From positions 1-20,666 of the forward strand of contig ML213518.1 of assembly GCA_004369045.1 (NCBI GenBank): a DNA stretch of 20,666 nt, read 5' to 3'. Under the pieces are notes generated by a model that was given only the letters and a program-made list of their open reading frames with translations, was not told the origin of the DNA and made no database searches. The DNA comes from Heliocybe sulcata. Taxonomy: Eukaryota > Basidiomycota > Agaricomycetes > Gloeophyllales > Gloeophyllaceae. Every line of letters starts with the position of its first letter. The stretch's first letter is position 1. This document shows, piece after piece, positions 422 through 20,143 of this stretch. A program made the position numbers and the translations under genes.

Positions 422-513
422 GATGGCAGATGGCACATTACTAGCAATAAGCATTCTCGAAAACATCTTGGATTCTGTCCATTCCACTCAGCAGGCTCTC
501 AGCGGCACTCACT

Positions 514-1207
514 TTACAATTTGTATCCCGTCAACCCCGGCACCACCCCAAACGAAGGCCCGCCCTTCCCAAACATCTTCCTCAAGTCGTCCACGAATGC
601 CTCCGGCTCCTCGTAAGCTGCGAAATGTCCGCCACTCGCGTGCTCCGACTCAAATACAACCTCGCCAATAAAGGCCTTTGTCCAGCTACAACAACACGGA
701 TGAGTACCTGGTAGGCACTCCAAGTACGGGAGTTATATACTTACGACCGTGGTGTGGGCGCGACTTCTTTCGGGTAGTAGGAGACGCCCAACGGCACTCC
801 GCGTACATACGGCAAGCTCATGAGACTATCGTTCATGATCTCATAGTATATTCTCAGCGAGCTCGCGGGCCCTGCTCGCGAAAACCAGTAGATCGAAACC
901 CATGTAAGCACTGGGCCGTGGTATCAGCTGTTACGATGCAGTGCTGTGACATCAAGTCACTTACCTTCATCATCCTCCCATTGGTAATTATCCGTCCAAT
1001 TGACGAGCTTCTCGTATATCCACGCCAGAAGTCCGGCAGGCGAATCGGCCAGCGAGTATCCAAGCGTCTGCGGCTGCGTACCCTGCTCTTTCGAGTACCC
1101 CTGGCCCTTACTGCTGAACCACTGCGCCCTCTCCAGGCCTTTTCGTTCAGACTCAGTATATGGGCTGAACGGAGTAAGATTGTCTAATATCAGCTCCAGG
1201 AACAAAA
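514..1207 (-). pseudogene. EH2: 5'-truncated epoxide hydrolase (exons 6-8 only)
   Basis: This is the 3' part of an epoxide hydrolase gene nearly identical to EH3. It has partial exon 6 (965-about 1207), exon 7 (745-910) and exon 8 (514-685), separated by introns of 54 and 59 nt, the same sizes as in EH3. It keeps the cap-region Tyr (GQGYSKEQ), the acidic residue in YYPKE and the catalytic His in GGHFAAYE, and ends GLTGYKL. The EHN domain, the HGWPG oxyanion motif and the QGGDWG nucleophile segment are absent. Sequence upstream of about 1207 is unrelated, so the gene was cut inside exon 6 and cannot encode an active enzyme. The retained exons have no internal stop, so the truncation is probably recent. 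Confidence 0.9.
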
Positions 1208-2982
1208 TCATTTGCTGTAGACATCAAGGTAGTTCGTCGTCCGGACCTCGGCCGCATTCGAGGTATGTCACTCGTCTCTCGAAACACGAAGGATCTCATT
1301 CTTCAAAGGTCCGAGAAAGCTTGCTACAGGTGGCAGTGTCCTCTACGGCGGAGACCACAAGTCGGAAGTAATAACATCAGATGAGCAAAAAGTGCTAGCA
1401 TAGCCCCAGTGATTCATAGCGGAGCGCGGTCTAAGGTATGCCATAGGTCAGGCACATGGGAATGCAGAGTTATGATCGACAGATTGACCCACCCACTAAT
1501 TTTAGCAAAGCGTCCCGCAGCACTTCGCAGTCGAGAATTCAAAGCCGCGTTGGTACCTGGTACTGCGGCGGCGCTCGTCCTGACATTGAGCGGCAGATGT
1601 AAGTCCGGGTCTGCATCCCAAAGGAGCTGAGATGATGACGGAGGAATGAAATCCGGAAGGCACTGGTCGCGCGCTGCATGTCTGTTGCGGACGCGAAAGG
1701 GTGGATCAAAGATGGGTTGGAATGAAGGTTTATAGTACTTACCGGGTACATTGAGTGACCGTTCGCTTCGGCGGGCGGGGGTGCCCTAGGTATGTCAGGG
1801 AATTAGCATGTTGCTATTGGACGAAGAAATGGCTTAAGGACGCATATCCGACTGTACCCATGAGGTGGCCAGCCTCAGAAGTACAGCTGGAACGGCACTT
1901 GAGTCTAACATGACGACGAACCCTCCTTCGCAGCACCGCTCTCCTTCTCCGAGAAGCGCATTTGTTTTTAAATGCAACTTGATCCGCGATGCTGTACCGG
2001 AGGAACTTCGCAATAATCCATGGTGTACCTCAAATGCAAGACAACTGGTTAGAAAGGGTCTCCGATCGATAAACGGTTGAATCAGAAAAGAGGAGTGTAT
2101 GATGAGGTATGGGACGTTGGCCGGACGCCACATACGCTCGGTAGAGGGAGGCAGGGAGCGGAGGTGACAAAAAAGAAAACATGCTTACTGAGGGTAAGTA
2201 TGCATTCACGGAGTTTGCGGAGTATGCAGTCAGAGCTGAGATGATTCATTGGGCAGTAGCGATGGTCAGCAGGTGATGGTAAGGTGCGACAAGAATGAAC
2301 TGACTTGAATGCACACGTCGGTCGGTATATTTGCTTTCTGGCAGACTTCGTAGGTGCGCATCTGTGAGAGATGTCCCTCAGATAGAAGAAGGAAAGGATA
2401 GTCAGCGCTTGTTGTAAAACTCCAGGACATAACGCAAGGGAGGGAAAAGCAAAAACCGATGCCTGTGGACGCTGGCCAGACGCTACAGGCAGTGGTGAAG
2501 GAAGAGGTCGCGAGGCAATAATCGGAGGAAGATTCAGAACCACTCACGCATTGCAAGAAGTGGATTGATGAGCGAGAAGAAGAACCTAGGAATTGGACCG
2601 TGAGAAGACAAGATGAGAGCATGGTACGAGGATACTTATCGAGGAAGGCGACGGACTGAATACGCGTAAATTTTGGTTGGAGGCTTGACGGTCGTGAGGC
2701 TATATAAACAAGAAGTCAATCTGCGAATGGGGGCTTCAGAACAGGGGATATTAAACATGAGCAGGAGCGTGTGGTGGGAAGGCAATTAAGATGTGTAGAT
2801 GCAGGAAGGCTATGATGTTGTGCATTCAAGAGAGGAAGGATTAGTGCAAAGTATCGCACGAGGGGCCTTTCATACGAGAAACTCATCGTCAGATAACATA
2901 GAACAGAGCATAAACTGTACTGACCTTTCACATGGCCGCGTCCGTTCACGTCCACCACCCCAGCAGCGTCTCGCTCCACGTC
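1208..2982. other. Stretch without a confident gene
   Basis: Between the broken edge of EH2 and AC1 I find no recognisable protein. Short frames on both strands lack familiar motifs and many begin only at GTG or TTG. A TATA box (TATATAAA, 2701-2708, readable on both strands) lies in the middle. It may serve the minus-strand ATG frame at 2622-2266, annotated separately. A plus-strand ATG frame at about 1910-2080 (56 codons) has ordinary composition but no support. This block sits where the mirror arm has only about 170 bases between AC2 and EH3, so it may be inserted DNA that truncated EH2. Confidence 0.5.
2266..2622 (-). CDS. Possible small Ser/Cys-rich protein (118 codons, doubtful)
   Basis: This ATG-started frame lies about 80 nt downstream of a TATA box (2701-2708) read on the minus strand. 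It opens MLSSCLLTVQFLGSSSRSS and is rich in Ser, Thr and Cys (8 Cys), with no motif I recognise. A GTGAGT donor occurs after codon 25 (about 2547), with candidate acceptors 75-90 nt downstream, so the true product may be spliced into another frame. The start could form a weak signal peptide. It may equally be chance open sequence in a fungal spacer. Confidence 0.2.
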   Translation of the reverse strand: MLSSCLLTVQFLGSSSRSSIHFLQCVSGSESSSDYCLATSSFTTACSVWPASTGIGFCFSLPCVMSWSFTTSADYPFLLLSEGHLSQMRTYEVCQKANIPTDVCIQVSSFLSHLTITC

Positions 2983-3876
2983 CTAGGCTTCGATCAGGTC
3001 GTCGAGCATGAGGCACACCCAATCGTCCCTAATAGCAGGGTCTTCGTCATCGTCCTCCTCACACCATTCCACTTCAGCAACATCACCGACACTCCATCCT
3101 TCAGCACCAGGATCCCGTGGCACATCGTCCGCCATGACAAAGAGTCGGTGAGCCACATCGTCGAGCGTGAGCATTCTCATCCACTCAAGTAATTGCTCTT
3201 GCTCCCCTCCCTCCTCTTCGTCTTCCTCCGCATGTTCGTCTCTGTCGTCTCCGTCCTCGTCCTCATCATCTGCTAGGTACGAAGCGTCGCAAGCCTCGAG
3301 ACTAAGATAGAGACTCAAATCCAGCTGAAGCTCCAGCTCGCAGTCACAGTCGACCATAACGGAAGAGTCGGGGTCGTATAGATGGAGCATGGAGACCTCC
3401 GTATCGGAGAGTCCAGAGTCGACGTTAGCCAGGTATCCGCCGCGGTCCTTCACGTCCTCCTCGGCATCACTCTTGAGCTCGACGTCCTCCTTGAGCTTAG
3501 GAAAAGACACGCTAGCCACCATACTCCACTCTAGCCCGCCAAATCTGCCGTCCATAAGGATAGAGACATCGGCATCGTAAGGTGACGGGAGGGAGGAATC
3601 GGAAGACACGGAGTCATCCTCGATGTTCCCACTTGAAGTGTCCACCTGACTCTCCACTCCGTATAGCTCCTCCAGTTCCATGTCCTTCTCATATTCCATC
3701 ACCATCTTCATCTCGTACTCCAAGCGGTCCTCCCAATTCTTGTCCGCGAACTCCTCGTACGTCATGGTCAGCCAGTTGTCCGGGTCCAGTGAGGGACTGT
3801 GCACCACGACGCCAGAAACTGCAGGACCAGAAGAGAAGGAGAGGTTTTCAGAGCTGGAGTAGACGCTATAGAACAT
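2983..3876 (-). CDS. AC1: highly acidic protein of unknown function (297 aa)
   Basis: A single uninterrupted frame from an ATG, with a TATA box about 110 nt upstream, encodes a very acidic, aspartate- and glutamate-rich protein. A dense acidic tract occupies residues 203-228 and is followed by the segment LTLDDVAHRLFVM (236-248), a GW motif near 260 and a second acidic patch (273-279). There is no signal peptide, membrane segment or catalytic motif that I recognise. A paralogue, AC2, lies in the mirror position on the right and shares MSY/MFY..., HS(P/Q)S, DKN...MKM and (I/L)DDVA(E/H)RLFVM. AC-like first codons also follow EH1, EH2 and EH3. It lies between CC1 and EH2 in the same orientation. 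The acidic stretches suit a soluble interaction or chaperone-like role, but that is a guess. I am confident the frame is coding, because the conserved motifs lie in one frame shared with the paralogue; the function is unknown. Confidence 0.75.
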   Translation of the reverse strand: MFYSVYSSSENLSFSSGPAVSGVVVHSPSLDPDNWLTMTYEEFADKNWEDRLEYEMKMVMEYEKDMELEELYGVESQVDTSSGNIEDDSVSSDSSLPSPYDADVSILMDGRFGGLEWSMVASVSFPKLKEDVELKSDAEEDVKDRGGYLANVDSGLSDTEVSMLHLYDPDSSVMVDCDCELELQLDLSLYLSLEACDASYLADDEDEDGDDRDEHAEEDEEEGGEQEQLLEWMRMLTLDDVAHRLFVMADDVPRDPGAEGWSVGDVAEVEWCEEDDDEDPAIRDDWVCLMLDDLIEA

Positions 3877-3982
3877 GATGGTGGATGGCAGAGGTGTAAC
3901 AACAGCAATAAGGACAAGGTATAAGAAGGGATGCAGCGGGTAGATTGAAAAATCTGGTGGACGACGAGCAGAGAGTCCCGTG

Positions 3983-3989
3983 TCTTATA
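3983..3989 (-). promoter_or_regulatory. TATA box of AC1
   Basis: The minus strand reads GGTATAAGACAC about 110 nt before the AC1 ATG. The same TATAAGA form is used before CC1. The leader between it and the ATG contains a pyrimidine-rich stretch and ends CCATCCACCATC before the ATG, resembling the sequence ahead of the AC-like remnants that follow each EH gene. Confidence 0.5.
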
Positions 3990-4297
3990 CCGCGGCAGGA
4001 AGTCATACTGAGACAGCCCAAGACATGCGCTGAAGATTGTTGCAGGTGCAACGCAACTGAACATCCCGCGCCGCCGACCGGACCCTCCAGATGGGAAGGA
4101 CCCTTTCCTTTTGGGCTGCAGTTGGTTCGCACGGTCCACATAACTTGGGTGGCTAACAGGAAGCTTCGTTGCAGTTGGGACCAACATCACTGAGCGCTAT
4201 ACAGCATATAGACAGAAGAAGAAAGAATGTCGCTGACGCCTAAGCAGCCAAGTCGCCGAGTAGAGGACGATATTCATGAGGGCTAAAACGTTAGACG

Positions 4298-4513
4298 TTA
4301 CGCATTAAAAGAGTAGAGGCTAAAGGGGCTTCCGCAAGTCCCCCAACCAGCATTTGCCGTCAGCGCGTCCGCTAGTAATTCCAAAGTATCTCCAATTGAT
4401 ATGATATGATTTCGTCGAATGATACCGATACATATAGAACGGCAAATATAGCAGCCGATGCTAATACTGAAGCAGAAGCAGATCCATAATGGTAAACCAA
4501 CTATCGAGTCCAT
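4298..4513 (-). CDS. Possible short hydrophobic frame (71 codons, doubtful)
   Basis: This minus-strand ATG frame lies directly downstream of the degenerate module array. Residues 5-30 are strongly hydrophobic and Ile/Cys/Phe-rich (LPLWICFCFSISIGCYIC), like a single membrane segment, followed by basic residues and a polar tail. No family is recognised. It may be a surviving exon of the gene whose duplicated exon/intron pieces lie just upstream, or a chance frame. Confidence 0.18.
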   Translation of the reverse strand: MDSIVGLPLWICFCFSISIGCYICRSICIGIIRRNHIISIGDTLELLADALTANAGWGTCGSPFSLYSFNA

Positions 4514-4589
4514 CTTTGAGCCACGCTACTAATACGATCCGATATGTTCGGTCGTACGCTCGACATGAAACCCTGAAAATACGGACTCC

Positions 4590-5465
4590 AGAGACAATCG
4601 ACCAATCCGTACCATGAAGTCGGATATCTAACATTGGTGTCGCGGTTGATGAAGCAGGAGTGCGGAGTGTATGAATTGAAGCGCCCGTCCTGGTCAAAAA
4701 CAGTCAGAACGGAAAACATCATACTACGGCAGAGTAGAACTCACTTCGAGCATATACCAGGTCGTTGTCGACCTCGAGATGATATTTCGGACGTACGCTA
4801 CGATGAATTTATTGTGGGAGTGTGCTGGATGTGCGTCGCGGGTTCAAGAAGCCTGAAGGCGGTGTGCTTGATCGAGCCTTGTTATATAATAGTGCGATTC
4901 CTAGTAGTAACGATCAGAACAAAGAACATTATTAGGCACCGCGGTTGTCATCACCTCGAGCTCACTCTAAGTGGTCGTCGCCCCCGGGACGATTGTCGGG
5001 AATATTTGAGGAAAAGGGAAGATGGAATAATATGTGGATAATGATATCCAGAAGCATAGGCCCTATTGGTAGACGGTCAAAACGGATAACGAAATACGAT
5101 CACGGAATGGTACTCACCAGGAGCGCACTCTGAGTTATGGGTGACCTCGAGATGACGCTTTATACCAGTATGTAAACAGACTTGGTGATATGATAAGCTG
5201 CAAGCGAGTTGCTGCGCGGCAATGCCGCGGGTCAAGGACTTGACACTAGGGACTCTTCAAACATGACGCGGATGTGGCGATTTAGGGAAGCAGGAGTGCG
5301 TGATGATGATGATGTATGACTTGTTCAAAGGCTTAGGTGCTGGACAAAGATGGTAAGGAGGACAAAGACGGTCAGGACGTATATCAAAGTATCGGAGAAG
5401 ATGACAACTCACCTTGGGCGTAATCCGGGTCGCCGTCGACCTGGAGACGACTCTCTAGACGCTTG
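4590..5465 (-). repeat. Degenerate tandem array of exon-intron-like modules
   Basis: On the minus strand the same small pattern recurs four times, at about 5465-5340, 5165-5050, 5000-4900 and 4790-4690. Each has a short exon-like piece (two of them read VDGDPDYAQ and VDNDLVYAR), a GTGAGT-type donor (altered in the third), about 40 nt of filler, the branch-like segment CCGTTCTGACCGT, and an acceptor AG. The first and last modules also share downstream sequence, CGCACTCCTGCTTC, near 5300 and 4650. The copies have diverged and acquired stops. This looks like a gene segment duplicated in tandem and then decayed. The parent gene is not recognised. Confidence 0.5.
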
Positions 5466-5558
5466 CCTGGGCCCAGCTCCCGCACCCGCCCGCCCCTCCG
5501 CGGCCCTCCCCTTCCCCGACCTCCCGCGCATCCACGCCCCTCATCCCCTCCCCTGCCC

Positions 5559-6614
5559 TCAGAACTTGTACTTCGCATGCATAGCCGCATGAAAGTCACT
5601 CAACTCCTGCGAGCGACGCGCCTCAGTAAACAGCTCGAATCGAAAAGAACAGGGCATCCGTACCTTGGTGACGGCTCCGAGAACATCACCCCCGACGTAA
5701 GCCGACTGCGCGGGCTCTGCACGCTCCTTCTCGAGCTCCTGCACTCGAGCACCCAACTCCCCAACTTCCTTCTCCTGCTCCGCTCTGATCACCTCAAGCT
5801 CCTGCGCACAAACGTGAAGTTCCTCGACGCGGTTCTCAGCGTCCCCAAGCTTCTCATCCTTTACCGCTCCGCTAACCTCAAGTTCGTGCGTCCGAGCCTT
5901 CAGCTCCGCGATGCGCTCGTCCTTTGCCGTTGCGTTGGCCTCAAGCACCTGCACCCAAGCCTTCAACTCCTCGACCTGCCAGTCCTTTTCCCCCATCCGA
6001 GCGCGCAGCTCCTGCGCCTCTGCGCTCGCCTTCTTGGCTTGCTTAAACCAACCGATAACCACCTTCCTCGCGTCTCCTGCCATCAATTCCTCCATCCACT
6101 CCGGAACCTCCCTTTCGCGCCGCTGCTCCTTCAGCCCCTTCTCCCGGAGCAGCTCCTCGACGTGAGTAGCCTGCTGGTGCTGGTGCTGCTGGGTCTTGGG
6201 AGGGCAAGCGGAGAGAACAGGGTAAGAACGGCCGGCAGACCGCCACATCGACGGCGCCGGCTTCATGGGACGCATTCGGATTGTGGGACCCGACCGAAGC
6301 CAGCGCTCGATCTCCATGGCTTCCTCCTGCGTGTGGCGGCGACGAAGTTCCGCATTGCGGTCGAAGGGAGGCGGCGTAGGCGTAGAGGGAATAGTAGGCG
6401 AAGGGCAAGGCGAAGGAGCAGCCGTCGAGGTGAGAGAGGCCGTGAACGGTGACGTTTCTCTCGGAGCCGGGGCTGCAGAGACAGCGGCAGCAGGAGACGC
6501 CTTCTTTCGAAGGAGACGAGACACGAGGGGCTGCTTGGTAGTCTGAGGAGATGTGGCCTCCGAGCGCTTGACCTTAGACTGAAGGTTCTTGAGGGCGATC
6601 TTGAGAGAAGGCAT
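5559..6614 (-). CDS. CC1: coiled-coil paralogue family protein (332 aa if spliced)
   Basis: The protein opens MPSLKIALKNLQSKV and has a basic motif VSRLLRKKASP (31-41), then a Pro/Ser/Ala/Thr-rich linker (41-85), an MKPAPSMW segment (117-124) and a C-terminal coiled coil (about 195-300). Three 21-residue units begin LEANATAKDERIAEL, LEVSGAVKDEKL and LEVIRAEQEKEVGEL. Exon 1 is 5664-6614. A 57-nt intron (5607-5663, GTACGG...CGCAG) precedes a 16-codon last exon. The intron is divisible by three and has no stop, so retention would give 351 aa. CC2 and CC3 have a 58-nt phase-0 intron at the equivalent place, which supports splicing here. There is no signal peptide or catalytic motif. Function is unknown; a scaffold or oligomerising role is an inference from the coiled coil. 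Confidence 0.85.
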   Translation of the reverse strand: MPSLKIALKNLQSKVKRSEATSPQTTKQPLVSRLLRKKASPAAAVSAAPAPRETSPFTASLTSTAAPSPCPSPTIPSTPTPPPFDRNAELRRRHTQEEAMEIERWLRSGPTIRMRPMKPAPSMWRSAGRSYPVLSACPPKTQQHQHQQATHVEELLREKGLKEQRREREVPEWMEELMAGDARKVVIGWFKQAKKASAEAQELRARMGEKDWQVEELKAWVQVLEANATAKDERIAELKARTHELEVSGAVKDEKLGDAENRVEELHVCAQELEVIRAEQEKEVGELGARVQELEKERAEPAQSAYVGGDVLGAVTKVRMPCSFRFELFTEARRSQELSDFHAAMHAKYKF

Positions 6615-6754
6615 GATTTCGATGGTATGTGCTAGTGATACTGTCCGTAGAGGTCTTCTGAGACGTTCCCAGAGAGTAGATGCAAGCGCACGAGACTGCC
6701 TTGATATTAGTAGAAGACAAGCGAGGGTAAAGAGCAGAGACGAGGCAAGATGGT

Positions 6755-6824
6755 TCTTATAGCGTTCCGAGTCGACGGCGGCTGTCCTCGATCCACGGCG
6801 GCAGTGCCAGCGAAACCGTCAGCC
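6755..6824 (-). promoter_or_regulatory. CC1 promoter: TATA box and GGCTGAC box
   Basis: Minus-strand TATAAGA lies at 6755-6761, about 140 nt before the CC1 ATG. The core GGCTGAC (plus-strand GTCAGCC, 6818-6824, in context CAGCGGCTGACGG) lies about 57 nt further upstream. The same core occurs upstream of the other three CC genes and at both window ends. Confidence 0.5.
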
Positions 6825-7505
6825 GCTGAGAAGGCAAGACCGAACTGCGACGCTGCGCAAGATGCCAGAAGCATCGACCATCGCAGGTGCGGCTGGCACC
6901 GTCAGTCTGAAGTTCAATATCACCAATACCAACTGCACCCATACGGAGAACTCACCAGCGTGACCATCCTATTTGACGGGAGCTCATAATGCTACAACAG
7001 CTCCAGAGATAGTTTACAGCGAGCTGAGAGATATGGTTGAGCCATTCAGTCAAGAGAGTTACCGAGCCCAAGTGACTTGGAAATGTGACAACATCCGTAT
7101 TGTCACTATCACGTGATCGCGTTGTGGCGTTCGCACCTGCGATACCTGCAGAGAAATCCAGGAGAAGGTTTGAGTGCAGCAACAATAATCACTGGGGTTA
7201 TATAAAGATATGAAGTTCTTCCTGCAATATGGTCATCACGTGCGCCGGCGAGCCTGAAGGTCTACGTCAGCTCCTTCCATGTTCACAGCCACCTCGGAGT
7301 TTGAGCGCCAGTCCAGGTATGCCGGGACATGCAAGGAAGTTAGCCTAATCATTATTCAGAGTGAAGACATCAAAAGGTGCAATTGAAGCGGATGGCTCAC
7401 GCAACCTCGTTGCACTCATGAGAAGTCTTGTAGAAATGTAAGCGGCGAAAAAAAAGAGAGAAAGGAGGGCACATACCTACCTTCATCTTGGCGCACAATG
7501 GTTCT
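6825..7505. other. Spacer with E-box palindrome and TATA-like sequence
   Basis: No gene is supported here. The stretch holds the palindrome ATCACGTGAT (7108-7117), a second CACGTG near 7234, and a TATA-like TTATATAAAG at about 7198-7207. A minus-strand open frame at 6952-7185 begins only at TTG and shows no recognised motif. The E-box palindromes could bind bHLH factors, but no target is evident. Confidence 0.4.
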
Positions 7506-7796
7506 TCACTGACTAGTAGGCCTTGCAAGGCAGTATTCACAAGCTCGTCTTGGGAAGTGAGGCCCAGCATATGGCATGGTCACTGCAGATGTTGGCCAGA
7601 CATCTGCAATGGAGACCCCAACCGAGAATCCTAACGCTCGCAGGATGAGCCTGATGTGTAGACAAAGTGCAGGGGTACACGTATCCGCCAGAGCCGCGTG
7701 ATTGTCGAGTGAAGCGACCGTGCAAAGTCGTGAGCAGAGAGGGAGCGGGAAGCGAAAGTAGTAAACTGTGAGAGCTGGAGTAAACGTGTAAACCAT
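7506..7796 (-). pseudogene. AC-like 5' remnant downstream of EH1
   Basis: About 93 nt after the EH1 stop, a minus-strand ATG begins a stretch homologous to the remnant in both terminal arms; homology runs from about 7800 down to about 7627. Compared with the arms, one base is missing between the TAC codon and TTTACTCC, so the frame shifts from the MIYNIYSSS pattern to MVYTFTPAL. It then stays open by chance to 7506 (97 codons). I treat it as a decayed copy and not as a real protein. Confidence 0.4.
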
Positions 7797-7888
7797 GATG
7801 GTAGATGGCACATTACTAGCTATAAGCATTCTCGGAAATATCTTGGATTGTGTCCATTCCACGCAGGAGGCTCTCAGCGGTACTCACT

Positions 7889-9520
7889 TCACAATTTATA
7901 TCCAGTCAACCCCGGCACCACCCCAAACGCAGGCCCGCCTTTCCCAAACATCTTCCTCAAATCGCCCACCAATGCCTCCGGCGTCTCGTACGCCGCAAAG
8001 TGTCCACCGCGGTCGTGCTCTTCCAGGAACACCACGTTCCCTACCAACGTTCGCATCCACCTATAGTGCAGAACCGCTAAGCGTCAGGATAGAATATTGG
8101 GAACCAGGCCATATGTGGCTTACGATTTGGGGACAGGCCCCATGTCCTTCGGGAAATAAGACACGCCGAGCGGCACATCTTGTATGGGCTTTGAAAGACT
8201 CAGGTCGCCTGCCTTCCTCCCTTCGTAGTATATCCGTATCGAACTAGCGGGACCTGCTCTCGAGAACCAATATATCGACACCCACGTCAACACTACCTCT
8301 CATCAGCCCCTATTCCCTTCTAATCCTCATTCCCAACATTATCAAGTACTCACCTTCGTCGTCTGTCCACGCATACTCATCTGTCCACCGCACCAGCTTC
8401 TCATACACCCACGCCAACAGCCCCGCCGGCGAGTCCGCCAGGAAGTACCCGAGCGTCTGCGGCTGCGTTGCCTGCTCCTCCGCGTACCCGCGTCCGTGGT
8501 CCATGGTCCACTTCGCTTGGTCTAGGCACCGCTGTTCGTAGGCGGAGTAGGGAGAGAAGGGCGTGAACATGTGGAGGAGGAGTTGGAGGAAGAGGATGGG
8601 GTGACGGTGTGGTTTGGGAATGTCGGAGCTGCCGGTGTAGAGGGTGGGGTGAGGGAAGAGGGAAGTAAAGGGCGAGGAGGACATACAAGGGCACGTTGGT
8701 GTGCCATGCTTTGACGTGCTTTGGGCCATACGTCGCAGCCATTCTACGCGTGACCTAATTTTCGCAAGATTAGACGAAGTTCTATGGAGGAACTGAAAGC
8801 AGCCGCACGATGTGCCCCCAGTCCCCGCCTTGCGTTACTGGTCGTGAATGGTATGAAGGACTATTCCCCATGGGTATGCATGATAGGAGCACGCACCATA
8901 TTCATTGTAGCCGAGCGATAGCATCAATTTATGTCCGACCTGAAGCGTCGTGTTACTCTCAAACCACGCATACAAACTGAGAACGCTATATACCTCTGCA
9001 TACTGAGTCAACACGAATCCTTGCTGCTTCACGCCCTCCGAAAATCCATATCCCGGAAGCTCAAGGACGACAACATGGAAGCTCGGGTGATCGGGAGACG
9101 CCTCGATAAGCAAGGGCAGCACCTTCTTGGCCTCGAGAAAGCTCCCAGGCCCTGCCCACGTCAAGTCAACTAGCCACCATGGCAATATTTGCGCAGGAAC
9201 TCACAGCCGTGAACAAATAACAACGGTATAGCACCCTCCTGCCGACTCCTCTGGTGCAAATAATGCACACTCAAGCCCCCAAACCCGCCCACCTCAATAT
9301 CTCGTAAGAAATGCGGCAGCTCATTCAGCTCCGCCTCCTGTTTTCGCCAGTCAAAGCCGTCCTTCCAATACGAAACAAGCCGCTTCATGTCCGCCAAGGG
9401 CACGCCATAGTCCCAGCCCGCGCCATCAAGCTCGTCCGGAAAGCGTACCAAGTCCAGTTTACGCCGGAGCAAGTCTAAGTCGGAGTCGGGGACGTTGATA
9501 CTGAAGGGAGTCTCAGTCAT
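7889..9520 (-). CDS. EH1: microsomal-type epoxide hydrolase (409 aa, 8 exons)
   Basis: This gene is predicted to hydrolyse epoxides to vicinal diols with the alpha/beta-hydrolase mechanism. Exons on the minus strand are 9205-9520, 8994-9151, 8897-8939, 8809-8837, 8687-8754, 8354-8628, 8124-8292 and 7889-8060. All seven introns (53-63 nt) are GT-AG and keep the frame. The N-terminal EHN domain has [15 protein letters not shown] and FDWR. HGWPG (104-108) is formed across intron 1. The nucleophile Asp178 lies in VTQGGDWGH. The likely proton donors are Tyr253 and a Tyr in RIYYE, the charge-relay acid is Asp346 in SYFPKD, and the catalytic His373 is in GGHFAAYE. The start at 9520 ([10 protein letters not shown]) matches the EH3 start. 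There is no signal peptide. It lies between GST and CC1 in the same orientation. The EH2 and EH3 proteins are close paralogues. Its physiological substrate cannot be read from sequence. Confidence 0.93.
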
Positions 9521-9897: not shown

Positions 9898-10363
9898 ATG
9901 CACAGCTCTGCTTTGCTCTACCTTTTTCTGTGTGCCACACAAGCAATGCTCACGTGATAAGACGCGTCTGTGGCTGAGCGCTGATTGATTGCATAACAGG
10001 CCTAGAAATGGCGTGCTCGGCCTCGGTCATTGGTAAGTTCTCATCCACATTTCCTCTTCTTCGACGCCCCTTATGCCTCCATGACCAGCACTGCGGAATC
10101 CCGTGCAGTCATCAGATGTCGGTTGCGCAAAGTCTCCACGATGGGTCCACTTTCGCTCCCCGGCTGGTCTACTTACTCTCAGCCCCTGTGCTATCGACTC
10201 CGCCTTCCCAATGGCTACCAGTGATCTCGTATTCATTGCTTCTCTTCTCTTCACTCTTGATGCTACATTGCAGTACATTTCTTGCTTCGCCACCGGCGAG
10301 CCTAACATCGCCGTCGCTCCTGTTTCCATGCCCACCTACTCATCCGCATCCAACTCTTCGTAA
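9898..10363 (+). CDS. Possible small secreted-type protein (doubtful, splicing uncertain)
   Basis: A TATA box at 9856-9862 is followed by an ATG at 9898. The first frame reads MHSSALLYLFLCATQAMLT and then a stop; it has the shape of a signal peptide. A weak GTGATA donor sits exactly at the stop, with an acceptor at about 10001. A good GTAAGT donor at 10033 and further acceptors near 10107 and 10273 could link to a final segment ending CFATGEPNIAVAPV...SSASNSS. If so, the gene overlaps the convergent GST gene by about 28 bases at its 3' end. The joining is uncertain, and it could be noncoding. Confidence 0.22.
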
Positions 10364-11323
10364 TGCCTGAACAATCCCATGCCATACTCCTGTCTTCGGT
10401 TGCTCGCCAGATACGCCTTCAGCTTCTCCTCTCCAGCCACCGAGTTCTTCATCTCGAACAGCATCGGATACTTGCCCGACTTTTCAAGCGCAGCCCACCG
10501 GCGAGGGAAGGCGAATTGTATCCCGTCCAACACCTGCAGCATCCAAGGTGAGGCGGCTGTAGGTAGTGGTCGAGCTGGATGACGTACCTGGAAGAGCACT
10601 AAGTCTGCTGTAGTGGTGCTTGATCCGACGAGCCTGTGCGACTTGGCCGGGTTGGAGGATAAGACCTGTTCGAAGTGCTGGAAAAACTTGGGGATGCGAT
10701 TCTTTCGGAAATCCTCTGCACGCCGTATCGCCTCATCTTTCTGATCCTCATCTTATTCCAGGCGCGTATTAGGTGAGATTTCACGTAGGATGCGAGTACT
10801 CACAGTATTGGCTGGTAGCCACAGGATGATGGACCTAACGGAGGTAAGTACTGACGCCTCCATCGTAACGACCGAAAAAAGGTTCTTTACTCACATCGTG
10901 CGCCTCGTTGGACAAATCCAACGCCGTCAACACAAGCTGATTAACCTGCGCCCTCCTAACCTCCCTAACCGCCTCCTCCTCTCCCTCCACATCTCCCACC
11001 AGCCCCAGCTTCGGACCCAAGTACGCCAAGATCGCCGGCGTCTGACTGATGAACACGCTCTGCGTGCCACCCCCGGACACGCTCTGCCCCGCCTGCGTCT
11101 TGGCCCTCTTCGCACTCGCCGGGGCCGGGAACTCAAGCACGGGCGGCGCGAAGTGCGGCGGGTGCCCGACGACGTCTGGGGACATGACGAGCTTGCCGAG
11201 GGTCTTCACGTCCATGTCGTCCGTGTAGGGCTCCCCGGCGGCTTCGAACGCGAGGCGGACGTACTCGCCACGCCCGGGGATGCCAGGCCAGTAGTGGAGT
11301 GTGTAGGTGGGTTTAGTCGACAT
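10336..11323 (-). CDS. Glutathione S-transferase (273 aa, 4 exons)
   Basis: A cytosolic GST, expected to conjugate glutathione to electrophiles. Exons on the minus strand are 10895-11323, 10804-10834, 10588-10751 and 10336-10533; the introns are 60, 52 and 54 nt, all GT-AG and in frame. The thioredoxin-fold N-terminal domain opens with YTLHYWPGIPGRGEYVRLAFE (residues 7-27), as in sigma-like fungal GSTs. The glutathione-binding segment ISQTPAILAYLG (92-103) follows a low-complexity Lys/Gln/Ser/Gly-rich insert (about 69-90). The helical C-terminal domain contains LDLSNEAHD-VHHP, DFRKNRIPKFFQHFE and the family segment TTADLVLFQ-VLDGIQFAFP. The start at 11323 is the first ATG after a TATA box. 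It is the innermost minus-strand gene and is divergent from CC2. Placement next to epoxide hydrolases suggests a shared detoxification theme. I cannot assign the exact class. Confidence 0.92.
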
Positions 11324-12428: not shown

Positions 12429-13605
12429 ATGTCTTTTATGATTAGTCACCTCAAGTCTCTCTCGTCGAAGGCCAGGCCGGTTGCTCCTCATGCATCTTTT
12501 GTCAGCCGCCTGTTCTGCAAGCAACCCAAGCCTTCTCCCATTCCCTCTATTCATAACATCACCGTGCCATCCACCCACGTCCTTCCTGGCCGCAATCCCT
12601 CCCCGCGCCTTTCCATCCCCATTGACTTCAAACCCCTTGGCTGGGTCGCGCCCGATACCTCCCTCCTCCAGGCTGCGAAGGACCGGCGCCTCACCCGCAT
12701 TAATCGGCGTATCTCTGCGCAGGTGCACGTCAGGAAGCTCGAGGAGGACGTCCTGCTTAGAGATGCGGAGATCTGGAAGATGAGGAAGGTGGAGCGGGTG
12801 TTCAGGAAGGAGGCATATGCGAGGGAGATTGAGCTGGAAGCCAAGAACGAGGAACTGCAGGCTGCGTTGGATACGAAGACGGACGAAGTGTTGATCTTGC
12901 ATGACGTGCTTGAGGAGCAGGAGAAGGAGATTCGTGGCTTATTGGGTGCGATAGAGGTGCAGGAGGGCGAGACTGAGGGGCTCCAGAGTGCGTTGGCTCT
13001 CAAGGAGGAAGATATTCGGCAGTTGGAGGAGATCGTCGAGGCGAAGGGGCGGTCGATCCGCAAACTGAAGAGCTCGCTTGTTGCGAAGGACGAGGATGTT
13101 CGCACTCTCGGTTGTAAGTTGGAGGTGAAGGAGGCTGCCATCGATAACCTCGAGCGGATGCTCTCGAGGGAGTACCAGGGCTTCTTGGAGCTCAGCGTCG
13201 CGCTTCAGGCGAAGGACGATATAATCAAGAGTCTAGAACGGGACGTACTCGTTCAGGCCCAGACGGGGGAGCTGGATAAGAGGCGCGGAAAGCGCGAGCA
13301 ATGGCAGAAGAAATGGATTGACTGGATGAACCGATTCGAACAAGAACGCGCGAAGGCGCACAAGAAGTGGTTGGCCGAACGCCGGGAGCTGACCGCCAAG
13401 AACGATGATTTGACCAACAGGAACAACAGGCTGCTGTATCAGCTTCACTATGTGACTATGGTGCGCTTTAGTCTTCTTGTCAGTATTTCTCACTGCTGAC
13501 GCTTGGCACACCGACTAGGATACGAACCTTGCTCCCGAACACGAGAAAGCCCAGGAAGCAGAACTGGAAGCTCTTCGGGAGTTAGCAGGGATAGACGTTG
13601 ATTGA
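12429..13605 (+). CDS. CC2: coiled-coil paralogue with two-heptad repeats (372 aa)
   Basis: Exon 1 is 12429-13460 and exon 2 is 13519-13605, with a 58-nt phase-0 intron (GTGCGC...GACTAG). The protein opens MSFMISHLKSLSSKARP, then FVSRLFCKQPKPSP (24-37), a Pro-rich linker, and IPIDFKPLGW (63-72), which match CC3 (IPRLFQKKDK and IPRAFKPVNW) and CC1. Residues 110-280 are a long coiled coil. Within it, 150-275 are nine consecutive 14-residue units of the form K(E/D)xxIxxLxxxLxx, for example KEEDIRQLEEIVEA and KDEDVRTLGCKLEV. A second basic helical region (285-340, WQKKWIDWMNRFEQERAKAHKKW) follows. There is no signal peptide, membrane segment or enzyme motif. It is the first plus-strand gene, divergent from GST. 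Its function is unknown; self-association through the coiled coil is expected. Confidence 0.88.
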
Positions 13606-14335: not shown

Positions 14336-15118
14336 GATTTTTCGTTTTTTAAGACGCTCAAAGCAGTTCAAGTTAGTAGGGTCAGTTCGGCAAGAAGGAC
14401 CCACTTTTGCATCCCTACGCCTTCGTTAGACGCAACCACGGCTTCTTCCACTACACCATCTCTGATACGACAACTCTCCCACAAGAAGCAGCCCTCGGTA
14501 GTACTCAGCGTCGCTAGCAGTGCGCGAGCCTTCCAAGTCACCACCACGGCCTCGTGCCGGGCCATGGTTCCTGACACTCACAACTCCTGCTCATTATTGG
14601 ACACATGCGATAGTCTCGAACATTCCTCGTCCTTTTTCCCTCCTCTTCCATCCGTCACTTGCGTGCCATCAGCATATCCTGGACCTGTCGTACAACACGA
14701 TGCCTGGTGGCTCACGAAGAACGTGGTGATCGGAGACGGTGATATCTTCGACCAGGTGGGCTCCGAAATCCAGAAACTCAAAGACGCCATAAGCGAGAGC
14801 AAGCGTAGCTGTGAAGAGTGGCGGATGAAGCGACGGGAACTTGTCAACAGACCCGTGGACTACTTCTGCGGCTCTCATGCTACCATCGTAAGTGCTCGTG
14901 CGCTCAAGTGCCCGTCTTCAACAACACCATTACGAGCATTATTGACGCCTCTCTCGTTGGTGCAGGAGACTCGCAGCCGCGAGAGAGGTGCATCTCCGGA
15001 GAGCGAATGCTCCGAAGACTCTAGCACAAATACGGACGTCTCATTCTTGAGCACGTCTACTGCTCTTGCCTCTCCACAGTTAGACTGCTCGGACAAGTGG
15101 GAAGAAAAATCTGTGTAA
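14336..15118 (+). pseudogene. CC4: diverged CC paralogue, start codon apparently lost
   Basis: A long open frame reads FSFFKTLKAVQ, then SLIRQLSHKKQPSVVLSVA, which aligns in order with the CC2 opening (MSFMISHLKSL and FVSRLFCKQPKPS) and with CC1 VSRLLRKKASP. No ATG precedes this part in frame; the first in-frame ATG is at 14564. From there, two exons (14564-14887 and 14966-15118, with a 78-nt GTAAGT...TGCAG intron) would give 158 aa. It contains HDAWWLTKNV, a short helical stretch EIQKLKDAISESKRSCEEWRMKRREL and a Ser-rich acidic tail. A GGCTGAC box lies at 14158-14166. The two-exon shape with a short last exon matches the family, but the long heptad region is missing. It may be a pseudogene, an N-terminally shortened gene, or have an unseen upstream exon supplying the ATG. 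Confidence 0.5.
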
Positions 15119-15680
15119 ACATAGCGCGGCGTAAGTTTCTGGTTGGATATAGCCCATGAACGTTTGCTTATCTCCAGAGCCCTAGTCTAGATGTCACACC
15201 TACGAGTCCATTATATACCATATCGTGTTTCTGTCTTCCCGATTTTTTGTGCATCGTTCCGTCCACAAATAGTCCGTACAAATAACGCATTGACGAAGTG
15301 CGTATAGACCGGTGAACATGCGACAACTTCCCACTTGTCTTCTCCATTGTCGCGTTGACTGTAACTCCGGGGCAATGACCTCGTATGTGTGGCAGAGTTC
15401 CGTAGGACACACAAGATATGCGGGATACACGCTTCCTATCCTTGGCAATTGATTCAACTCAACAATACGTCTCAACATTCAGGAAAGTCTGGACCACCTG
15501 GGCCTGATATAGCTGACGAGTGGATTGCCGCACCGACGATGCTCGCCTACTCGCTCGAAACCCGAGGCGATACCAACGACGTCGTCCGCCGAGCGGCTGA
15601 CCACGACGACTCGGCGGGTTGCGTAGGTTGGTATTGTGACCAGGCATCGGTGGACGATGACCGGCCAGCCAGCCGCAGCT
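15119..15680. other. Spacer between CC4 and CC3
   Basis: No gene is supported. Several open frames occur but share nothing with the families in the window. The last 100 bases become GGC/GCC-rich and lead into the CC3 promoter boxes. Confidence 0.4.
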
Positions 15681-15719
15681 GTCAGCCATGTCAGCCACCC
15701 CGTCACCTCAAGATAAAAG
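15681..15719 (+). promoter_or_regulatory. CC3 promoter: paired GTCAGCC boxes and TATA-like box
   Basis: GTCAGCC (15681-15687) and GTCAGCCAC (15690-15698) are arranged head to tail, followed by GATAAAAG (15712-15719). The CC3 ATG is about 170 nt downstream after a pyrimidine-rich, purine-poor leader. Box sequence and spacing to the TATA-like element resemble CC2 and both window ends. Confidence 0.55.
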
Positions 15720-15890
15720 GACGAACACAGGCAGGATTGAAGTCATCCCATCTTCCCTTCCCTCCTTCATCTCCACTCATCAATACCATCGCTACCACTT
15801 CATTCCACTTATCACTTCCATCACTATCCATTCATCGCCGCTTACGCCCTCGTCCATCATCACCACACTTCGAAGCCACACTTAGCCACG

Positions 15891-16935
15891 ATGCCTTCCC
15901 TTAGCAAGGCGCTGAGGAACCTCAAGCAGAAGCTCACACCCAGCCCACCCAAGCTCTCCGCCATCCCCCGCCTCTTCCAGAAGAAGGACAAATCCGCGCA
16001 AGACCCCGCACCAGTCAGGCGGCTGACAATGGTCGACCTCAACGACAGTCTCGCCCCCCCTCCCACTCCCGAATTCAGCTCGTCGTCAGCCTCCGGAAAT
16101 ACCTCATATTACTCTCTCGCTGCGGCTGCCAGCTTCTCTCCTCCCGACCTCGACGCTCCACTACCCCCTCTCGAGCGCGCTCCCATCCCCCGCGCGTTCA
16201 AGCCGGTTAACTGGTCGCCCGAGCAGTACGCCAGGCCGCAGCAGAAGGAGACAAAGGCCGCGGAGCCTCTGCCACGGGAGCTGGCGGCGAGGAAGGTGGG
16301 CAAGGTACGCGTCCCCGGGAACCGCAGGACGCTACGAGTCAGTCAGCTTGGAAAGGCGCGGAAAGCACTTGGGGAGAAGAATGTTGAGGTTGTACGGATG
16401 GGAGGGAAGATTGAGAAGCTGGTGGAAAGCCTTGAGGAGAAGCAGAGGGAGGTTGACGAGGCGCGCAGGGCCCTCGGGGTGAGGAACAGTGAGTTTACCC
16501 TTATGAAGCTCGGCATGGGCGGCAGAGTGAGGGAATTGGAGACGACGCTGGCGGGGAAGGTTAGAGAGCTGGAGGGGGAGATCGAGGACAAGCAGCAGGA
16601 GATGGAGCGTAGACTGGAGGAGAAGCAGAAGGAGGTGGACGAGGCGAATGCTCAGATGAGCTGGTTGAACATTCGGGTACGCGTCGCTGAGAAGATGGTG
16701 GTTCAGAAGGACACGGAGATCGATGAGCTGAAGGCTACTATTGCTGAAATGAAGCAGATAGAGGAGGAGCCTGAGGTCTCGATGGTGCGTGCTCCTTCAT
16801 CCGTGGCCCGCCTATGCATTTGCTGATACATTTTACTCGCAGGATGGTCCAGACTGCCAGAGGGACGCGTCGCCCGACCGGACTTTGACCCGCAAGAACG
16901 TCAAGTGCATTCTCGGGAAGCTGGCGGACGCTTAA
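15891..16935 (+). CDS. CC3: coiled-coil paralogue family protein (328 aa)
   Basis: Exon 1 is 15891-16784 and exon 2 is 16843-16935, with a 58-nt phase-0 intron (GTGCGT...CTCGCAG) that falls directly after a Met codon and before an Asp codon, exactly as in CC2. The protein opens MPSLSKALRNLKQKL (compare CC1 MPSLKIALKNLQSKV), then AIPRLFQKKDKS (24-35), a Pro/Ser/Ala-rich linker (55-100), IPRAFKPVNW (99-108), and a coiled coil from about 155 to 292. Two stretches, EEKQREVDEARRAL (182-195) and EEKQKEVDEANAQM (243-256), look like an internal duplication. The C-terminus is short and basic. No catalytic motif or signal peptide is seen. It occupies the mirror position of CC1, before AC2 and EH3. Confidence 0.88.
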
Positions 16936-17501
16936 AGGAAGTATGAGTTGACAATTGACGGACGAGGTTATCGGTGGTGCGAGGGAAGACGGACTGACCG
17001 ATCGGAAGACGCACCATTGAACGTATCCTCGACATATTGTAGCATATCGCTTCCATGGACCGGATTTTGTTTAGGGTTTTATGAGGCATAGGGCACTGGA
17101 TTGGCACAGAGTATCGGACGTCTCTTGGATCGTATCAGTAGCAAGGTTCGAGTGTATGCATGTCTCATGTATCGAGTATCTCTCTGTATTGTGGTTTGGT
17201 TATGCATGGATTGTAGGACTGCGCTTGTCCAGTGGAACGTCTTGGTGCCTGTTCGTTGAAGAAATGAGGGGTGCATGTTATACACGATATTGAGCGAACT
17301 GTGTGCCAGGTGCGGGCTATTGAGTGGGTTTGCGTTACATGCAACGCCAAATCCGAGACATCCTCGAAGTTGTCCGCTGGTGGCTGGGGCGTACAAATGC
17401 CTTCAGCGCATTCCCTCGCCGGTCGTCTTGGCACGTACCAGCCTCCGCCCCTTCCACAACGCTGAGCTCGCTTCTGGCTATCCGCCCCTCTTCAAAGGCG
17501 C
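16936..17501. other. Spacer between CC3 and AC2
   Basis: No gene is supported. Frames on both strands lack motifs, and I find no copy of the module array that occupies the equivalent place on the left (4590-5465). Confidence 0.4.
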
Positions 17502-18351
17502 ATGTCTTACACCACGCCTCTCAGTTTCAACGACATTGTCGAATTGTCTGATGTGAAAGACTCGGCAGCTGGCATGTTATCGCATAGCCAGAGCTACCTG
17601 GATATTCTCGGCGGTCCTATGCTGCATCCGAGCGACAGCTGGATGGCTCTGAGTGATCTCCATGGGGTATACACTGACAAAAATCATTCCGCATCCAGAA
17701 CCATCGATATGAAGATGGGCGTGGGGCAGGGCGCCCTCCAGACTCAAGCTCCATCAGAGGGGCACCGGGAGCATGCAGTGAGACGGGAGCAAAGAGCCGG
17801 GCGTTCAAGACCAGAGCTCGGTGACGCAGGCCATCTCAGCTCTACCAGCAACTTCCTTTCCCGTGGTAGATTCGTCGGACCTCGCGCGGTGTGACTACAA
17901 TGTCCGTCAGTGCGATGTCTGAACCGTAACCCGAAGGAACAGCGACGGCGTCAAAAGCGCCCGAGTAGACTGCGTCATCGACGTGGTCTCCCTGCTTCAC
18001 TTGTAGGCACTGCATACAGTCGTCCTCATAATACTTCGCCTTCTCGTCTCCATCGACAACTTTCATATGGCGTTCAACTTCGATCTGGAGACTGACAGCG
18101 CCATTAATCTGTTCTATGGGGAGAAATGTGAGGATTATAGCGTCAAGAGGAGAGAATTCACCATAGACGACGTGGCTGAACGACTCTTTGTTATGCTTGA
18201 ACTGAGCGACTTCTCTCAAACCTCGGGGTGGGTGCCGGAGGAAGTAGAGCAGGACTCGAGTGAAGGCAGCGGCCTCTGGGCTGTTGTAGAGAATAAACAT
18301 GGAGTGGTCTTGAGTAACATTCGAGGATTTGGTCAATGTAAAGATGCTTGA
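17502..18351 (+). pseudogene. AC2: broken paralogue of AC1
   Basis: The first frame, from ATG 17502, reads MSYTTPLSF, then SAAGMLSHSQSYLDI, DSWMALSDLHG, and TDKNHSASRTIDMKM. These match AC1 in order (MFYSV, AVSGVVVHSPSLDPD, DNWLTMTYEEFA, ADKN...MKM). It stops at 17894. The homology resumes in another frame from about 18067, with FNFDLETD and then REFTIDDVAERLFVM and GWVPEEVEQD (AC1: LTLDDVAHRLFVM and GWSVGDVAEVEW), ending at 18351. The acidic middle of AC1 has no clear counterpart. I read it as a frameshifted, partly deleted copy. An intron joining the two frames is possible, but I find no convincing donor and acceptor pair. A minus-strand open frame over the same DNA (17842-18417) is taken as a shadow. 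Confidence 0.6.
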
Positions 18352-18471
18352 AGACAACATACCAGCTTGACAGAGAAGAACGCCGGCAGGCGCCGTAATA
18401 TTTGGTATCACGTGCATATGTACGCGCCTTCACTACATGTCAGCTGTTGTGTGCTTAATTCAGTTCAGTCT

Positions 18472-18480
18472 TATATATAT
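18472..18480 (+). promoter_or_regulatory. TATA box of EH3
   Basis: TATATATAT lies about 45 nt before the EH3 ATG, in the short 170-base gap after AC2. It implies a very short leader. Confidence 0.55.
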
Positions 18481-18520
18481 CTCTTTATCCATCCGCTGTA
18501 TCGACCGCCAAACGACCCCA

Positions 18521-20143
18521 ATGAGCAGCGAGACACCTTTCCGTATAGCCATTTCTGATTCAGAGCTTTCATTTCTGCAGCAGAAGCTTGCTCTCACGCG
18601 TCTGCCCGATGAACTTGACGATGCTGGTTGGGACTACGGCGTCCCTCTGGCGGATATGCAACGCCTATTGGCGCGGTGGCAGGACGGGTATGATTGGCGG
18701 AAGTACGAGAGGGAGCTGAATGAGCTGCTACAGTTCACGAGGGATATCGAGGTGACAGGATTTGGAAAGCTGAATATCCACTACCTGCATCAGCGGAGCG
18801 CAGTGGAGGAGGCGATACCACTGCTCTTTGTTCATGGATGTGAGTTGCGCATCGGGCTCGTTGGGTATAGTTCTTTGATAGCTCTCTAAGGGCCTGGTAG
18901 CTTTTTCGAGGCGAGGAAGGTGTTTCCCTTGCTCACTGCGGCGTCGGCGGAATATCCGAGTTTCCACGTCGTGGTGCTCGGGTTGCCCGGATACGGGTTC
19001 TCGGAGGGTGTGAAGCAGAAGGGATTTAAGATGGTTCAGTATGCGGAGGTACTGTCATATTAGTCGTCTTCAGGCTTAGAGATCTTATGGTCTGAGTTAC
19101 TGTTGAAATAGGTTGGGCATAAGCTCATGCTGGCGCTTGGATACAGCGAGTACGGTATGGTCGCGTAGGGCGCATCATTCAGAGCTGCTTGATACGACTG
19201 AGCATCTTTCTCCTGCAGTGGCACAAGGCGGGGATTGGGGCCATTTGGTGCGCACCATTCGACCAGTAAGCAGCCTTGTTCTGACTGCATTTCATCTGCA
19301 GGTGACGCGGCAAATGGCGGCGACTTATGGACCTAAACACGTTAAAGCGTGGCACACCAACATGCCGATGTACGTCTTCTCTTCATGGCTCTTTTGCTCG
19401 TGCCTGAAGGATGCATCGTGCAGATCCATGCCTCCGAAACCGCATCGGAACCCCGTTCTATTCCTCGAGCTGATATTACACAGTCTTACTCCGTTCAGCC
19501 CATATACTGAGTCTGAACGGAAAGGCCTGGAGAGGGCGCAGTGGTTCAGCAGCAAGGGCCAAGGGTACTCGAAAGAGCAGGGTACGCAGCCGCAGACGCT
19601 TGGATACTCGCTGGCCGATTCGCCTGTCGGGCTTCTCGCGTGGATATACGAGAAGCTCGTCAATTGGACGGATAATTACCAATGGGAGGATGATGAAGGT
19701 GAGTGACTCGTTCGCGCGGCACTGCATCGTAACAGCTGATACCACGGCCCAGTGCTTACATGGGTTTCCATCTACTGGTTTTCGCGAGCGGGGCCCGCGA
19801 GCTCGCTGAGAATATACTATGAGATCATGAACGATAGTCTCATGAGCTTGCCGTATGTACGCGGAGTTCCGTTGGGCGTCTCCTACTACCCGAAAGAAGT
19901 CGCGCCCACACCCCGGTCGTAAGTGTTTATCTCCCGTGCTTCGAATGCCTACCAAGTGCTCATCCGTGTCGTCGTAGCTGGACAAAGGCCTTTATCGGCG
20001 AGGTCGTCTTTGAGTCGGAGCATGCGAGTGGCGGACATTTCGCGGCTTACGAGGAGCCGGAGGCATTCGTGGCCGACTTGAGGAAGATGTTTGGGAAGGG
20101 CGGGCCTTCGTTTGGGGTGGTGCCAGGGTTGACGGGATACTAA
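18521..20143 (+). CDS. EH3: microsomal-type epoxide hydrolase (407 aa, 8 exons)
   Basis: Exons are 18521-18839, 18891-19048, 19112-19154, 19219-19247, 19302-19369, 19424-19698, 19753-19918 and 19978-20143. Introns are 51-64 nt, GT-AG and in frame, at exactly the same positions and phases as in EH1. The EHN domain has [16 protein letters not shown] and YDWR. The protein has HGWPG (105-109), the nucleophile Asp179 in AQGGDWGH, proton-donor Tyr254 in GQGYSKEQ plus a Tyr in RIYYE (319/320), a Glu346 in SYYPKE as the likely charge-relay acid (Asp in EH1), and His373 in GGHFAAYE. All key residues are present, so it should be active in opening epoxides to diols. The product ends GLTGY, two residues (KL) shorter than EH1 and EH2, because of a stop gain. 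Exons from the middle of exon 6 onward lie inside the right inverted-repeat arm and nearly equal EH2. No signal peptide is evident. The substrate is unknown. Confidence 0.93.

Follow-up and report, generated by a model that had tools for sequence, protein, structure and literature searches.

A mirror-ordered epoxide hydrolase gene cluster in Heliocybe sulcata as a probable patchwork of separate duplications

The window analysed here is the first 20,666 bases of scaffold C16 (771,455 bases; ML213518.1) in the draft assembly of the basidiomycete Heliocybe sulcata (GCA_004369045.1; 31.6 Mb, 51 contigs). It contains genes for epoxide hydrolases of the EHN type (EH), for basic coiled-coil-like proteins (CC) and for acidic proteins (AC). 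These are transcribed outward, with CC1, AC1 and EH on the minus strand of the left half and CC3, AC2 and EH on the plus strand of the right half. An earlier note on this DNA had described the order as a mirror image; the gene order and the outward strands hold, but the left EH gene consists of exons 6–8 only. The left end of the window is the start of the scaffold and the right end adjoins a 6,023-base N gap (20667–26689). All results come from this one assembly, and the genome-wide match counts for CC, AC and EH are lower bounds. The features on which the argument turns are the following.

1–204, minus strand: promoter-like end with a TATA-like box, a relative of a dispersed element
1–1202: left arm of an inverted repeat (EHb exons 6–8, 3′ flank, AC remnant, promoter-like end)
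393–435, minus strand: AC-like remnant 3′ of EHb, mirror of 20228–20270, with the context of an AC start codon (position by eye)
514–1208, minus strand: EHb, truncated, exons 6–8 only
1200–7073, minus strand: duplicated block with CC1 and AC1, an inverted copy of C16:41412–47285
2983–3876, minus strand: AC1, open frame, 297 aa, net charge about −71
5559–6614, minus strand: CC1, open frame, basic protein of 351 aa with a coiled-coil-like part
7631–8008, minus strand: 3′ end and flank of EHa, 87% identical to EHc 20407–20030, a conversion-like tract
7771–7810, minus strand: AC-like remnant 3′ of EHa, the same as beside EHb and EHc
7889–9520, minus strand: EHa, EHN-type, eight exons (aligned part 9520–7898; place of the stop codon taken from the sequence)
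15891–16935, plus strand: CC3, basic, coiled-coil-like (first exon 15891–16784, second exon by eye)
17502–18351, plus strand: AC2, short, AC-like, perhaps two exons (about 17502–17738 and 18067–18351; splice not settled)
18521–20143, plus strand: EHc, EHN-type, 407 aa, eight exons, hand-spliced
19461–20666: right arm of the inverted repeat, matching the left arm
20228–20270, plus strand: AC-like remnant 3′ of EHc (aligned stretch)
20463–20666, plus strand: promoter-like end, mirror copy, 98% identical to 1–204

EHa and EHc seem to be intact EHN-type enzymes of the ordinary kind and probably hydrolyse epoxides. Both carry the domain and motifs of the solved EHN-type (microsomal-like) epoxide hydrolases 5f4z, 1qo7 and 6ix4: PF06441 scores above its curated cut-off at 9206–9511 (EHa) and 18533–18838 (EHc), and HGWPGSF, GGDWG, GYxxEQ, YYE and GGHF are present in each. 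The spliced alignment of EHa contains neither a frameshift nor a stop codon. EHc aligns to 5f4z over 6–389 (E 4e-70) and to 1qo7 over 3–388 (E 3e-57), and the juvenile hormone epoxide hydrolase 4qla is another solved relative. HGWP, the Asp nucleophile, the lid tyrosines, the acid and the His of EHc are in register with 5f4z, and we take these residues to have catalytic roles in EHa and EHc. Unlike the solved enzymes, the genes here form a local array with seven introns per gene, and EHb is a 3′ fragment. Only its last three exons match (tblastn, 523–687 and 744–1208), EH homology ends at ~1202–1208, a forced alignment of the remainder passes through stop codons, and 1208–7898 yields no EH match. 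EHb is without exons 1–5, the EHN domain, HGWPG and the catalytic nucleophile, which excludes activity as an EHN-type enzyme.

An EHN profile search of the genome listed seven matches, three on C16 (at 9.2, 18.5 and 64.3 kb) and four on scaffold C7 (1406–1416 kb). The seven full-length EH models are 63–71% alike in protein, and EHa and EHc share 65% DNA identity (BLAST). One of the C7 models, C7_4, has a frameshift mark beside an intron. The model at 64.3 kb (EHd, C16:64316–65974) is complete apart from one in-frame stop in its last exon, which may be a sequencing error or mark a young pseudogene. In addition, a scar of 25 EH codons (E 1e-4) lies at C16:38284–38358, flanked by homologues of genes that on C7 enclose two EH genes.

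The DNA common to the two halves of the window is the 1.2-kb end repeat. BLAST of the window against itself aligned 1–1202 with 20666–19461 at 93.5% over 1208 columns, so that the outer arms are indeed an inverted duplication, as had been proposed; a third, weaker copy lies at 7631–8489 (73.5% to 256–1100). The homology stops at 1202/19461, and beyond the arms no continuous DNA homology between the halves was found, as a single inverted segmental duplication would have required. The AC-like remnant and promoter-like end described behind each EH gene were recovered: the remnant is a 43-bp match to the start of AC1 with a score that none of 200 shuffles reached, and the outer 204 nt are near-identical between the arms and related to a dispersed sequence on C4 (four places) and C14 (three places). 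Both ends of the window break at the same point of the inverted repeat, 3′ of the TATA-like sequence. Since one of these ends is the scaffold start and the other an N gap, the sharp mirror boundary is probably a product of assembly stops.

The inner part of the left half has its partner elsewhere. At the DNA level the window was compared with C16:1–114000 (gap included) and with the last 24.6 kb of C7, a scaffold of 1.42 Mb. The block 1200–7073 matches C16:47285–41412 at 89.7% identity, in inverted orientation and ~40 kb away on the same scaffold, and has no DNA homology to the right half. CC1/CC3 and AC1/AC2 have no DNA-level match, and CC3 and AC2 have no DNA match anywhere in the compared regions. 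A further set of blocks joins C16:34474–41356 to C7:1420609–1409650, in pieces at 84–88%. Genome searches returned four matches for CC1 (E up to 1e-5), with copies 85–91% alike in protein, and two for AC1 (E up to 1). Because the EH models are only 63–71% alike, the EH and CC1 families were not duplicated together. Behind the AC1 copy AC1b (C16:45480–53300) and directly behind AC3 there is no EH match at E < 0.05. Divergence thus differs by layer, as the earlier note had observed, with arms at 93.5% and CC and AC pairs that show weak protein similarity only; its single old inverted CC-AC-EH duplication does not fit a CC1-AC1 block that matches C16:41412–47285 and not the right half. As a side observation, a repeat between CC1 and AC1 (4391–5016) recurs at ~70–73% likeness at C16:36345–36963 and C7:1418115–1418737 and in part at C16:53258–53465.

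Synonymous divergence (dS; 95% resampling ranges in brackets) was 0.154 (0.091–0.235) for EHb/EHc, 0.134 (0.088–0.188) for CC1/CC1b, 0.117 (0.068–0.176) for AC1/AC1b and 0.126 (0.082–0.175) for CC1c/CC1d, and 0.33–0.40 between the two CC1 groups. By this measure the arms appear about as old as the copy of the CC1-AC1 block and belong to one epoch. As the arm dS is close to that of the block (0.117–0.134), no later homogenisation of the arms is needed. The genes shared by the two halves are not all of one age, for the EH ends stand at dS 0.154 and the CC and AC pairs retain no more than remote protein likeness; conversion could blur this comparison.

Between EHb and EHc, 18 of 129 synonymous sites are changed but only 4 of 441 nonsynonymous ones; their introns diverge by 15%, the near flank by 8% and the outermost 255 nt by 4.3%. 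On one neutral branch ~31 nonsynonymous changes would be expected in EHb against the four seen, and by a simple Poisson estimate EHb has been neutral for at most ~29% of the time since the copy (5% level). EHb was therefore constrained for most of that time, until fairly recently, so that either the truncation came after the copying or the remaining piece serves some function not evident here. The ratio of nonsynonymous to synonymous divergence (dN/dS) was 0.22–0.30 between CC1 and its three copies, 0.22–0.40 among CC1 copies and 0.53 for AC1/AC1b, which indicates that CC1 is clearly constrained and AC1 at most mildly.

Homogenisation is visible within the EH family, at the 3′ end of EHa. EHa and EHc are 84–88% identical from 20021 to 20320, non-coding flank included, and 45–73% per 100 nt elsewhere in the gene, with the jump at EHc position ~20030. 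Such a profile marks a tract that is recombinant or resembles a gene conversion. The homogenisation that had been proposed for the outer parts of the locus is thus seen between EHa and the other two EH genes and is unnecessary for the arms.

We conclude, with a probability of roughly 0.7, that the locus is a patchwork of separate duplications in a birth-and-death cluster of EHN-type epoxide hydrolases, and neither a single mirror duplication nor a three-gene module. The homologies, the truncation and the divergences are observed. According to the model, copies of EH, CC and AC would have been shuffled by separate segmental duplications and homologous exchange, and a junction at ~1202, presumably recent, would have placed the inverted copy of the CC1-AC1 block next to EHb, the 3′ half of an EH gene and the sister of EHc. 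Template switching or ectopic recombination may have been the cause. Birth-and-death multigene clusters with ectopic gene conversion are a general class. The locus resembles them in its segmental copies, truncated gene, EH scar and conversion-like tract, and differs in being interleaved with CC and AC, families without a Pfam or NCBIfam match at a curated cut-off.

Several points weigh against this conclusion. The long constraint on EHb misfits a one-step chimeric copy truncated when it was made. A single event, or co-assembled haplotypes, would also give EHb/EHc, CC1 and AC1 an equal dS. Each of the four CC1 copies recovered comes from one of two EH-bearing regions (on C16 and C7), the resemblance of CC1/CC3 and AC1/AC2, weak but in matching order, would be compatible with an inverted duplication of great age, and the assembly is a draft with a gap at one end of the window and the scaffold start at the other.

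The alternative that survives best, at long odds all the same, is one old inverted duplication of CC-AC-EH whose outer EH ends were later homogenised by gene conversion. It would account for the shared order and outward direction on both sides, and for the weak CC1/CC3 and AC1/AC2 similarity. The conversion-like tract in EHa is in keeping with it, as is the lower divergence of the outer 255 nt (4.3%) and the next flank (8%) relative to introns and synonymous sites. However, inside the arms the halves share no DNA homology, exons 1–5 of the left EH gene are missing with no EH match in 1208–7898 or behind AC1b, and the arm values (dS 0.154, introns 15%) are those of a separate block duplication.

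Slightly less probable still is that the near-identical copies are the two haplotypes of a dikaryon, assembled partly separately, so that the repeats would be allelic or chimeric. Four recent pairs share a dS near 0.13, the window is bounded by a scaffold start and an N gap, and EHb was under selection until fairly recently, all of which this explanation would accommodate. Against it, the partners lie on the same scaffold in another order and orientation, their flanks do not align, C7 is a scaffold of 1.42 Mb, and the homology at the 1202 junction is short (by eye).

The remaining readings depend on how the CC and AC genes are related. CC1 and CC3, and likewise AC1 and AC2, appear to be remote relatives at best. 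A hidden Markov model (HMM) built on the N-terminal 45 aa of CC5 and the four CC1 copies placed CC3 (E 0.015) and CC2 (E 0.12) as the top non-members among 4415 open reading frames; with the CC1 copies alone, CC5 scored E 0.069 and CC3 only E 1.3, and CC2 was not listed. In genome searches CC3 (E up to 1e-5) and CC5 (E up to 1) found themselves only, and CC2 found itself and two weak matches (E 0.019 and 0.1). The AC1 C-terminus ranked AC2 first among the same 4415 frames (E 0.019), the reverse search led from AC2 to AC1b (E 0.079) and AC1 (E 0.095), and AC2 matched the AC model weakly (E 0.028). The likeness of the first AC2 exon to AC3 was reached by 0 of 500 shuffles and that to the AC gene on C30 by 14 of 500; for the second exon and AC1 the figure was 2 of 500. 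A genome search with AC2 (E up to 1) found itself only.

For AC3 and its matches, shared protein stretches show an AC family with homologues elsewhere in the genome. A search with AC3 (E up to 1) gave ten matches, namely itself and nine stretches at seven places, including two on C30 (best E 4.5e-9), two on C20 (E 4e-4 and 0.001), two on C5 (E 0.004–0.006) and C16:122 kb, the weakest at E 0.028. The two of the seven places that were inspected, at C30:92 kb and C20:305 kb, each hold a long acidic frame, and none of 500 shuffles scored as high as AC3 did with the frame on C30. A score that 2 of 500 shuffles reached links AC1 to AC3, as does a downstream element. An HMM of AC3 and the C30 and C20 genes does not find AC1, and 27 of 500 shuffles attained the score of AC1 with the C30 gene; both results speak against a kinship of AC1 with the dispersed AC genes. 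We also observed that the homologues on C30, C20 and C5 are paired on opposite strands, 18–69 kb apart: C30:92049(+)/160967(−), C20:305098(+)/329627(−) and C5:967671(+)/949231(−).

The downstream element, TGGCCRGACGY, was noticed by eye before it was counted, and its counts are descriptive. It stands on the strand opposite to AC, behind AC1 (two copies), AC1b (two), AC3 (one), the C30 gene (two) and the C20 gene (three). It occurs nowhere else in the window or in C16:26690–114000, and not behind AC2 or AC4.

2118–2128, plus strand: TGGCCRGACGY behind AC1, first copy, nearer the start of the window
2473–2483, plus strand: TGGCCRGACGY behind AC1, second copy
C16:30769, 45982 and 46340; L047:3223 and 3568; L048:3312, 3487 and 3657: TGGCCRGACGY elsewhere

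CC is followed by AC on one strand at CC1-AC1 and its copy, at CC3-AC2 and possibly at CC4-AC3 and CC2-AC4. Net charge is +3 to +13 for the CC1 copies, CC2, CC3 and CC5 and near zero for CC4; it is −11 to −76 for AC1, AC1b, AC3 and AC4, and −6 and −11 for the two AC2 pieces. In a heptad test CC1 scored 0.81, above the highest of 100 shuffles (0.75). CC3 and CC5 (0.81) equal the highest of their shuffles and CC2 and CC4 fall within theirs, so that 'coiled coil' is a weak description for these. Membership of AC4 and CC4 in the families was considered and is unsupported by search. Neither CC nor AC has a match at the curated cut-off in Pfam or NCBIfam, where the CC matches are sub-threshold, and AC1 has no match in the PDB. 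It is conceivable, though improbable, that CC and AC work as a unit of two genes set among those for detoxification. Their proteins would interact and be complementary in charge, would change fast between loci and be constrained within them, and might, for instance, serve in recognition or resemble a toxin and its antidote. In titles and the starts of abstracts we found no paper that describes a CC-AC or CC-AC-EH unit.

A retained functional module of all three genes, as the earlier note had suggested, is very unlikely. There is one complete trio (CC3-AC2-EHc), CC1 also occurs at the C7 cluster with its four EH genes, and the constraint among CC1 copies (dN/dS 0.22–0.40) would suit a kept unit. 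An EH gene follows AC in both halves, intact on the right and as a fragment on the left, and because one of the mirrored EH genes is only a fragment, without the catalytic core, this is probably not a kept three-gene unit. There is no EH match at E < 0.05 behind AC1b or directly behind AC3, and EH and CC1 differ in duplication age. Moreover, AC homologues lie on C30, C20 and C5, scaffolds without an EHN match in the genome search, which is the main argument that AC stands there without EH. The C30:92 kb and C20:305 kb loci contain no EH better than E 0.2 and no convincing CC within 4 kb each; these intervals extend 2.3 kb upstream of the AC frame and ~1.0–1.1 kb downstream of it, so that an EH 1.8 kb behind AC (as at AC1) would escape detection, as would a CC starting more than ~2.3 kb upstream, the CC model covering the N-terminus only. 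The EH matches on L048 (E 0.20 and 0.26) and those of the CC model on L047/L048 (best E 0.18, in a small set) are weak and were dismissed as fortuitous. The earlier note had named a lack of linkage to EH elsewhere as the outcome that would refute the association; AC shows it (C30, C20, C5), and CC does not, as all four CC1 copies found lie in the two EH-bearing regions. Least likely of all, despite the inverted repeats at both ends, is that the window represents one large transposable element that captured host genes and has the 1.2-kb arms as its terminal inverted repeats: the ends are set by the scaffold start and the N gap, the arms hold part of an EH gene, the search that located the seven dispersed relatives of the outer 204 nt gave no match to the EH part at any of them, and no transposase family was found among eight scanned proteins or in the glutathione S-transferase (GST)-like one.

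Three other genes lie between the features listed above.

10336–11323, minus strand: GST-like gene (GST_C_3), hand-spliced protein
12429–13460, plus strand: CC2, basic, coiled-coil-like, first exon (short second exon by eye)
14564–15118, plus strand: AC4, small acidic protein, hand-spliced (AC membership not supported by search)

The GST-like gene sits between the two EH arms, and its closest solved chain is 3h1n. Such a neighbour makes a detoxification role for EHa and EHc plausible. In Phlebiopsis gigantea an epoxide hydrolase appears in an expression table (PMC4256170), and the placing of EH genes beside a GST-like gene here recalls the extractive-detoxification genes of white-rot fungi.

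Further observations concern the surroundings. A segment of ~190 nt, 150–250 bp behind the promoter-like element of C4 and C14, is 92–96% alike between these scaffolds, and the promoter-like part ahead of it merely 72–76%. Its sites are L022:2446–2660, L022:9740–9954, L024:5243–5462, L025:6331–6540, L026:1773–1990 and L027:3795–4003. It folds as one long hairpin (−60 kcal/mol, 55 pairs, one with a compensatory change), and its borders resemble a GC-AG intron by eye; it has no Rfam match, and none was found in L042 up to E 5. Rfam gave no match at the gathering score in the window or in L022, L024, L026 and L018. C16:31046–33698, between AC3 and CC1c, contains a DUF6589 gene and a weak DEAD-helicase-like piece (below cut-off), perhaps a mobile element. 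Four successive TTAGGG units occur nowhere in the assembly, and a search of viral_contigs, sensitive to close relatives only, returned no relatives of CC1 or AC1.

The locus is real and complex, and ordinary gene-cluster turnover explains it best. It illustrates that a striking mirror gene order can arise from separate duplications, with ends set by assembly stops. It also offers a dated example of turnover in a fungal EH cluster, with a shared dS near 0.13, a long-constrained gene that is now cut and a conversion-like tract. The main point of interest left is that a gene of the basic, coiled-coil-like kind repeatedly precedes an acidic one: CC and AC belong to no named family and are worth study apart from the EH genes.

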